The notes beneath the pieces were generated by a model. The model had not been told where the DNA came from, searched no databases, and saw only the letters and a program-made list of their open reading frames with translations. Position numbers and translations under genes: made by a program. A stretch of 39,282 bases of DNA from contig SHBL01000004.1 in NCBI GenBank assembly GCA_004321845.1, forward strand, positions 1-39,282, read 5' to 3'. Each line of letters opens with the position of its first letter. Position 1 is the first letter of the stretch. This DNA is from SAR86 cluster bacterium (GTDB taxonomy: Bacteria > Pseudomonadota > Gammaproteobacteria > Magnimaribacterales > TMED112). Of the stretch, positions 21,041-37,459 are shown piece after piece.

Positions 21041-21688
21041 ATGAGACATAGAAAACTTAGTAGAAGATTCAGTAGAACATCATCACATAGAATGGCTATG
21101 ATGAGAAACCTTGCTGCGTCTCTAATTGAGCATGAAGTAGTAAAGACAACAGTTGAAAAAGGCAAAGAGTTAAGAAGATTTATCGAACCTTTAATCACTA
21201 GAGCTAAAGAGGATACACTTCATAATAGGAGACAAGTTATTTCAGAATTGCACTCTAAAAGTGCAGCATCCAAGCTATTTTCTGATTTAGGACCAAGGTT
21301 TAGTGAAACCAAGGGGGGTTATCTCAGAGTGATTAAAGCAGGTTTCAGAGAGGGTGATAAAGCGGATATATGTTTTATAGAGCTAACTATTAGAGATGAG
21401 TCTGAAAGTTTAGATCAAGTAACTGAATCTGAAAATATAACAAAAGAAGAATCTAATGTTTTAGAAGATGCATTAGTTGAAACTGCAGTTGAAGAAACAA
21501 AAGAAGATAAACCTAAGAAAGCTGCTGCAAAGAAAACTGAAACAAAAGAAGATAAACCTAAGAAAGCTGCTGCAAAGAAAACTGAAACAAAAGAAGATAA
21601 ACCTAAGAAAGCTGCTGCAAATAAAGCCAAAACAAAACCTAAGAAAGAAGAAGAAAAGAAAAGCTGGTGGTCTAGGTTTAAAATTTAG
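21041..21688 (+). CDS. rplQ: 50S ribosomal protein L17 with repeat-containing C-terminal extension
   Basis: 215 aa; MRHRKLSRRFSRTSSHRMAMMRNLAASLI; core followed by about 90 aa of tail. Confidence 0.97.
   Translation: MRHRKLSRRFSRTSSHRMAMMRNLAASLIEHEVVKTTVEKGKELRRFIEPLITRAKEDTLHNRRQVISELHSKSAASKLFSDLGPRFSETKGGYLRVIKAGFREGDKADICFIELTIRDESESLDQVTESENITKEESNVLEDALVETAVEETKEDKPKKAAAKKTETKEDKPKKAAAKKTETKEDKPKKAAANKAKTKPKKEEEKKSWWSRFKI
21494..21628 (+). repeat. Three tandem 45-nt repeats in rplQ, each encoding ETKEDKPKKAAAKKT (third copy diverges at its 3' end)
   Basis: gaaacaaaagaagataaacctaagaaagctgctgcaaagaaaact at 21494, 21539 and 21584. Confidence 0.95.
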
Positions 21689-35749: not shown

Positions 35750-36474
35750 TTAATATAGCTTTAGTAGGCGCATCAGGAAAAATGGGCCAAGCTGTTATTA
35801 GAGAATCCTTAAATGATGAAACAGTTCAGGTAACAAATTATTTAGTTAGCGATGAATCAAAATTTTTAGGTACTGATGTTGGAGAGCATCATTTTTCTCA
35901 ACCATCTGGTAAATATTTTAGTAAAACTATTGGTGAACCTTTCGATTGCATTATAGATTTTGCTACTCGGGAAAATCTTGATGCCAGACTATGCTATTAC
36001 GAAGAACTAGGCAAACCATTACTATTTTGCACAACAGGTTTAAGTCAAAAGCAAAAGGAAAAGTTAAAAGCTCTTTCGAATGAATTTCCTATTTTCATCG
36101 CTCCTAATACATCTGTTTTAGCTGCTTTAATGGTGAATTTTCTAGCTAATATTAAAAAAATTGAAGGTAGCTATGAAATTAGAATTTCAGAAAAACATCA
36201 CAAATCTAAAATAGATAGCCCTTCGGCAACAGCAATTTCTTTAGCAAATGCTGCAAATATTGATGAAAAAAAGATAGAAAGTTTAAGAGAAGGTGATCAT
36301 GGTAACTGGCATAAAGCCAAGATTTATAGTGAATTTGAAGAATTGCAGATCGAACATTCGACTACAAACAGAAGTATTTATGCACAAGGTGCACTAAATA
36401 TTGTTAAATGGTTTTACCAGAAGCCTAAAAACCTTTATCATATGCAGACCTTAATCGAAGACTTATATGAGTAA
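35746..36474 (+). CDS. dapB: 4-hydroxy-tetrahydrodipicolinate reductase (short, divergent)
   Basis: 242 aa; [47 protein letters not shown]; position after dnaJ. Confidence 0.88.
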
Positions 36475-37459
36475 AGTAAACATTAGCATAGAGCAATTAT
36501 TTGAACTTGGCGCTCACTTTGGGCACAGGAAAAGATTCTGGAACCCTCACATGGAGGATTACATCTTCTGTGAAAAAAATAATATACATATTATTGACCT
36601 ATATAAAACCCAAGAGAAAATTATTGAGTTATATGAAATATTCAGAAAGCTTTCCTCTGTAGGAAATAAAGTAATGATTGTTGGCACCAAGAGAGTTGCA
36701 TCTAGTTATGTTTCTGAGTTTGGTGAAAAAACTGGTATGCCATATATTTCACACAGATGGTTGGGAGGAATGTTAACTAATTGGAAAACGATCAAAGTTC
36801 CTATAAATAAACTGCTTGAATATCAAGAAAATAAGGCATCTGGAGAATTACAATCAATGATCAAAAAAGAAGCTGTGATGTTAGAGAAAGAAATGAAAAA
36901 GCTTTCACTAGTATTTGATGGTGTGAAAGATATGAAAGGATTGCCTGATGCACTTTTTGTTATTGATGTTGAAAATGAAAAAATAGCAGTTCAAGAAGCA
37001 CTAAAAATGGGTATACCTGTTTATGGTCTAGTAGACACTAATAGCAACCCTAGCAATCTAACAAATTTTGTTCCAATAAATGATGATTCTTCAAAAACGA
37101 TTAAATTTGTCTTAGATTTGCTATCAGAAGCAGTACTTGAAGGGCAAGATTCAGCAAGAAAACAAGGTTTAGTGCAAAAACTTGATGGAGATAAAGGGCC
37201 AAAAGTATTCTCAATGAATACTGCAACAAAAGTTATTTCAGTGAAAGCTGAAGAAAAGTCAGAAGCAGCTATCGAAGCAAAAGCTGAAGAAAAAATTGAA
37301 GCTCAAAAAGACGAAAAAACAACCACTAAGAAGCCAGCAGCTAAAAAAGCTACAGCAGCTAAGAAGCCAGCAGCTAAAAAAGCTACAGCAGCTAAGAAGC
37401 CAGCAGCTAAAAAAGCTACAGCAGCTAAGAAGCCAGCAGCTAAAAAAGCAGATAAATAA
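36467..37459 (+). CDS. rpsB: 30S ribosomal protein S2 with Lys/Ala/Pro repeat C-terminal extension
   Basis: 330 aa; LFELGAHFGHRKRFWNPHMEDYIF; HRWLGGMLTNWKTI; followed by tsf. Confidence 0.98.
   Translation: MSKVNISIEQLFELGAHFGHRKRFWNPHMEDYIFCEKNNIHIIDLYKTQEKIIELYEIFRKLSSVGNKVMIVGTKRVASSYVSEFGEKTGMPYISHRWLGGMLTNWKTIKVPINKLLEYQENKASGELQSMIKKEAVMLEKEMKKLSLVFDGVKDMKGLPDALFVIDVENEKIAVQEALKMGIPVYGLVDTNSNPSNLTNFVPINDDSSKTIKFVLDLLSEAVLEGQDSARKQGLVQKLDGDKGPKVFSMNTATKVISVKAEEKSEAAIEAKAEEKIEAQKDEKTTTKKPAAKKATAAKKPAAKKATAAKKPAAKKATAAKKPAAKKADK
37328..37459 (+). repeat. 33-nt tandem repeat in rpsB (3 identical copies plus a degenerate terminal copy), each encoding KKPAAKKATAA
   Basis: aagaagccagcagctaaaaaagctacagcagct at 37328, 37361 and 37394; terminal copy 37427-37459. 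Confidence 0.95.

Follow-up and report, generated by a model that had tools for sequence, protein, structure and literature searches.

The locus described here raises the question of what a ribosomal protein might do with a long, repeat-containing C-terminal extension that ends in a short aromatic and basic tip. The window, that is, the whole stretch of 39,282 nucleotides of SAR86 DNA that was analysed, belongs to an assembly of 657 kb that is 72% complete, and carries at 21041..21688 on the forward strand the gene rplQ for a ribosomal protein bL17 of 215 aa with a C-terminal extension, identified by matches to TIGR00059 (130.5 bits; cut-off, 70.05) and PF01196 (115.2 bits; cut-off, 27). This gene is the final one of the rpoA ribosomal protein operon and is followed by a convergent uvrA. 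The conserved core, residues 1-117 (21041..21391, forward strand), amounts to nearly the whole of an E. coli-type bL17 and aligned with solved bL17 chains over residues 1-120; it is followed by a flexible linker, residues 118-208 (21392..21664, forward strand), composed of an acidic stretch and then K/E/A/P-rich repeats, containing no aromatic residues and predicted by AlphaFold with pLDDT 33-42 over most of its length in a model of low confidence overall. Tandem Repeats Finder located within the linker 3.2 copies of a 45-nt unit (ETKEDKPKKAAAKKT; 21494..21637, forward strand), and these precede the C-terminal tip WWSRFKI, residues 209-215 (21665..21685, forward strand), for which the genus consensus is WW[S/K]RFFK. 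The initial annotation had placed an aromatic and basic tip after the repeats, as was found, and its C-terminal letters (KTKPKKEEEKKSWWSRFKI) were exact, with residues 197-215 at 21629-21685 and the stop codon at 21686-21688. A PDB sequence search using the L17 tail gave no match.

Within the SAR86 genus of the window, the tail is conserved at its tip and nowhere else. The L17 core was obtained from 19 of the 21 genus genomes, and conservation of the tip among relatives, named in the initial annotation as a check, was confirmed, since WW[S/K]RF ends all 16 fully readable tails. These include the tails of G003, G019, and G020, in which a real absence was considered and rejected because contig breaks are responsible and the tips were found at other contig ends; G014, whose contig breaks within the tail, and G004, whose assembly contains no L17, lie outside the count. 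Thirteen tails end in WWSRF (usually WWSRFFK) and three in WWKRFVKNPF[R/K], a form confined to one subclade of the genus, and the tip of the window is an outlier with final KI where the genus rule is FK. In seven lineages, mean pairwise identity was 33% for the linkers versus 87% for six tip residues. Linkers range from 74 to 131 residues where whole, from -12 (G006) to +8 in net charge (positive in most species), and from TETKEDKPKKAAAKK to EEKKPAPKKEAA, EEPKAE, and EKPVA in their units, with the K-rich part swapped for acidic KEAEP/EEPKAE units in some species; F, W, Y, C, and H are absent from every linker in the genus. The tip Arg codons (AGG, AGA, and CGT) and Phe codons (TTT and TTC) vary only synonymously across the genus, so that the protein sequence rather than the DNA is kept. 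Taken together, these comparisons indicate purifying selection on the tip and not on the linker, as expected of a functional element carried at the end of a spacer. Tethers are usually built in this way, from a freely composed spacer and a fixed tip.

The long L17 tail is restricted to this one genus. L17 was obtained from 177 of the 199 genomes of the order; the L17 open frames listed from beyond the genus do not exceed 163 aa, counting codons upstream of the start, the L17 of the other SAR86 families is short, and none of the L17 tails read from those families has an aromatic tip. Three genus members are tail-less, namely G002 (134 aa) and G010 and G011 (137 aa), each with a clean early stop and an intact uvrA behind it. 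A frameshift was rejected as the cause, because no tail remnant was present in any frame past the stop. In a tree of RpoA and the L17 core, G002 was nested beside the species of the window, so its missing tail is a loss, and G010 and G011 formed a clade whose place is not settled.

Among the WW.RF DNA-pattern matches read in the genus, which are the part of the WW.RF list having WWSRF codons or lying at selected loci, a C-terminal tip was found on L17 only, and the others were internal to proteins or in non-coding frames. A general C-terminal sorting tag is disfavoured, as the non-L17 matches read were never C-terminal. No tip was found on another ribosomal protein of tail-less SAR86 among the operon stretches listed for f1, f2, f3, and f4; in the ribosomal protein operon of G009 (L192, G009:C1:146000-160000) about 14 kb reads N, so that the upstream ribosomal proteins were left out. 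Low-complexity extensions were also observed on other ribosomal proteins of the window. L3 (8695-9603) has an acidic low-complexity C-terminal tail without an aromatic tip, and L3 tails differ strongly among relatives; L4 (9603-10238) has an N-terminal ETKKAAKP repeat and no aromatic tip at its end; and S2 (36467-37459) has a C-terminal tail with four PAAKKATA units (repeat, 37326-37449) and no aromatic tip.

The initial annotation had likened the tip to a short amphipathic anchor. The helical hydrophobic moments of SWWSRFFK, NWWSRFFK, and SWWKRFVK were 0.82-0.89, a level reached by about 4-5% of the permutations of each peptide, and in a helical arrangement two Trp and two Phe of the consensus tip would share one face; these moments are comparable with those of FtsY membrane-targeting segments, that of E. 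coli included. The likeness thus held for the hydrophobic-face pattern of the consensus but not for the variant in the window, SWWSRFKI, whose moment was 0.42, with 55% of permutations as high. The AlphaFold model, low in confidence throughout, leaves the linker disordered and makes the four residues 209-212 a helix, in a block of pLDDT 53-59, and a tip of 7-8 residues is short for a stable membrane helix.

The signal recognition particle (SRP) is the usual machinery that takes ribosomes to the membrane. The likeness of the tip to the membrane-targeting helix of FtsY prompted a search for that protein, and matches above the cut-off of TIGR00064 were found in 0 of 21 genus genomes and in 14 of 14 controls. 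A search for the SRP54 GTPase domain PF00448, common to Ffh and FtsY, gave a match in 1 of 199 genomes of the order and in none of the 40 with a completeness of 90% or more. The lone match (G102) was rejected as a SAR86 gene because its contig is archaeal, with prefoldin on one side of the gene and a Ski2-like helicase on the other, and is contamination. This archaeal contig in a SAR86 assembly (L138 / L174, G102:C34) carries genes for prefoldin, FtsY, a Ski2-like helicase, and UPP synthase. The small SRP RNA (RF00169) was detected in 0 of 199 genomes of the order and, with lax filters, in 0 of 20 SAR86 genomes versus 11 of 11 SRP-positive gammaproteobacteria. The entire SAR86 order thus appears to be without the SRP pathway (Ffh, FtsY, and SRP RNA). 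Most assemblies are incomplete, so that single absences carry little weight, and the argument is based on the 40 near-complete genomes together with the concordance of protein and RNA searches. SRP has been called conserved in all living organisms (PMC7844537) and nearly ubiquitous (PMC7987157), and in a literature search, with most subscription papers outside its scope, SAR86 was nowhere reported to have lost SRP.

At the level of the class, SRP GTPases were found in 108 of 114 genomes, usually in two or three copies, the exceptions being two SAR86 genomes and G201, G204, G236, and G243. The latter four are 94-98% complete, are also without SRP RNA, and were not grouped with SAR86 in a weakly resolved tree, and SRP may therefore have been lost multiple times. 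The remaining three SAR86 families, comprising about 180 genomes, are without SRP, yet have a short L17, and the tail-less G002, G010, and G011 are also without SRP. The loss of SRP predates the L17 tail and exceeds it in spread. Because SRP-less relatives manage without the tail, life without SRP does not depend on it, and the tip, neither indispensable nor obligatory as a substitute for SRP, is at most one solution added to an SRP-independent way of life that is older.

A second case was found in G201, an unrelated SRP-less gammaproteobacterium of another order (97% complete), whose L17 (163 aa) ends in PPTTAPAKKKWWKNIFSRNK (tail end also given as KKKWWKNIFSRNK and APAKKKWWKNIFSRNK) with the tip WWKNIFSRNK. 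Among the L17 proteins examined outside the genus, only that of G201 has WW or three aromatic residues within its last 15 residues. None of the SRP-positive genomes examined, the long-tailed G244, G303, and G297 included, has an aromatic L17 end; the tip was also absent from the sole other sampled genome of the order of G201 and from three of the four SRP-less genomes outside SAR86. As a single case, G201 makes an association between tip and SRP loss suggestive.

The most probable reading of these results, with a likelihood a little below even, is that the L17 tail is an exit-tunnel tether to the membrane or the translocon that partly replaces FtsY. The charged, aromatic-free flexible linker, of about 75-130 residues, would emerge at the tunnel rim, where the polypeptide exits, and bear at its end the short aromatic and basic tip WW[S/K]RFFK. 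This tip would insert in the inner-membrane surface, with Trp and Phe on one face and Lys and Arg toward the lipid headgroups, or alternatively would bind a membrane-bound translocon component, and would thereby hold translating ribosomes near SecYEG/YidC, acting like the FtsY membrane-targeting helix or the mitoribosome tethers in a bacterium without SRP. Both the binding to membrane or translocon and the targeting role of the tip are what we infer. In ribosomes other than those of SAR86, bL17 is located at the tunnel vestibule, in contact with trigger factor (PMC12752688), and mitochondria evolved several unrelated tunnel-exit tethers after SRP loss (PMC8321541, PMC8998825). Because neither SRP nor FtsY was detectable in the organism, a ribosome-membrane tether becomes far more plausible, and the suggestion of the initial annotation that the tip could tether ribosomes to membrane, translocon, or a processing factor is partly supported. 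The C-termini of YidC read ...VLIMSRAQSESG in G009, ...GRVVGSDGSGGGG in G013, and ...MHGPKK in G023, and no long basic ribosome-binding tail was present in the YidC of two complete genus genomes or in the other YidC read, so that ribosome docking of the Oxa1 style is not in evidence. A wider claim, that SAR86 bacteria gave up the SRP pathway entirely, that one genus built receptor-free targeting into its ribosome, the bL17 of each ribosome carrying its own membrane-targeting peptide and so biasing translation to the membrane, and that a similar L17 tip arose independently in another SRP-less gammaproteobacterium, is possible although rather unlikely.

After the tether, the reading ranked next, itself unlikely although worth weighing, is that the tip serves to dock a soluble tunnel-exit factor and does not anchor the ribosome in the membrane, the linker fishing for trigger factor, SecA, peptide deformylase, methionine aminopeptidase, or an unnamed SAR86 factor. 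The reported contact of trigger factor with bL17 near the vestibule (PMC12752688) would suit such a role, and an invariant WW.RF with a Ser/Lys position and final residues that vary is as compatible with a short linear motif as with a lipid anchor; moreover, the variant in the window keeps WWSRF without the second Phe, a residue that would matter more to a lipid anchor than to a docking motif. Lipid binding is, however, the better fit to G201, where WWKNIFSRNK keeps the aromatic and basic character but not WW.RF.

Two readings in which the tail tethers nothing were judged less probable still. The linker and tip might fold back and bind rRNA or neighbouring ribosomal proteins, stabilising the subunit or shielding the exit; long basic extensions of ribosomal proteins commonly bind rRNA, and in most species the overall charge of the linker is positive. 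A tail folding back in this way would be expected to tolerate less spacer variation than is observed, since linker length, sequence, and charge vary freely and acidic KEAEP/EEPKAE units replace the K-rich part in some species, and this arrangement is accordingly improbable. Least probable, and to be considered very doubtful, is a near-neutral low-complexity tail produced by repeat slippage, with the tip an old frame end kept by common descent. The repeats clearly expand and contract, three relatives are tail-less, and low-complexity tails occur on other ribosomal proteins of the window, all of which would be expected of such an ornament, but a neutral end would drift as its linker does, whereas the tip is invariant despite synonymous codons beside linkers at 33% identity. 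The tether therefore stands first in the ranking, followed in order by soluble-factor docking, fold-back, and neutral ornament.

An order of abundant free-living marine bacteria without SRP raises the question of how membrane proteins are targeted, and for one genus the L17 tip offers a concrete, testable candidate that might supply part of the answer. If the tether reading is true, the tip would constitute a bacterial parallel to the mitoribosome tethers evolved after SRP loss. The tip would also be a portable peptide, with which it could be asked whether a tunnel-exit anchor relieves SRP depletion.

Compared with bL17 in general (TIGR00059 / PF01196), for which solved homologues exist in many ribosomes, the core of the window protein (residues 1-117) is ordinary and ends the rpoA operon, and the difference lies in about 98 extra residues with a conserved aromatic and basic tip, solved gammaproteobacterial chains being typically about 120-130 aa. 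The bL17 sunset-domain variant NF051448 is likewise an L17 with a long C-terminal extension, but the window protein is not a member, scoring 114.4 bits against a cut-off of 280 in a match that ends at residue 191 (profile position 186 of 229), with the sunset domain not recognised. The membrane-targeting sequence of FtsY has been described, in Parlitz 2007 as cited in PMC8082313 and PMC7987157, as an autonomous membrane-binding amphipathic helix. It shares with the L17 tip a short length, an aromatic and basic composition, in the L17 consensus putatively amphipathic, and a position where a charged low-complexity region terminates, as seen in the archaeal FtsY segment EEEPKKKGFFAKLKEKF and the L17 segment KKEEKKSWWSRFFK; the L17 tip is shorter and C-terminal on a ribosomal protein, with no NG GTPase after it, and no profile match to the SRP54-type NG GTPase domain was found in the window L17. 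In the archaeal FtsY (L138, frame 463-2100), a membrane-segment-like motif KKKGFFxxxKEK was observed twice, with a long charged linker between the copies. The mitoribosome tethers (Mba1, mL45, mL119, and the Oxa1 C-terminal tail), which keep ribosomes at the membrane, share with the L17 tip the tunnel-exit site and a setting in systems that lost SRP (PMC8321541, PMC8998825); they are not homologous to it, being folded proteins or the tail of an insertase, whereas in the SAR86 genus the corresponding element is a linear tip on bL17.
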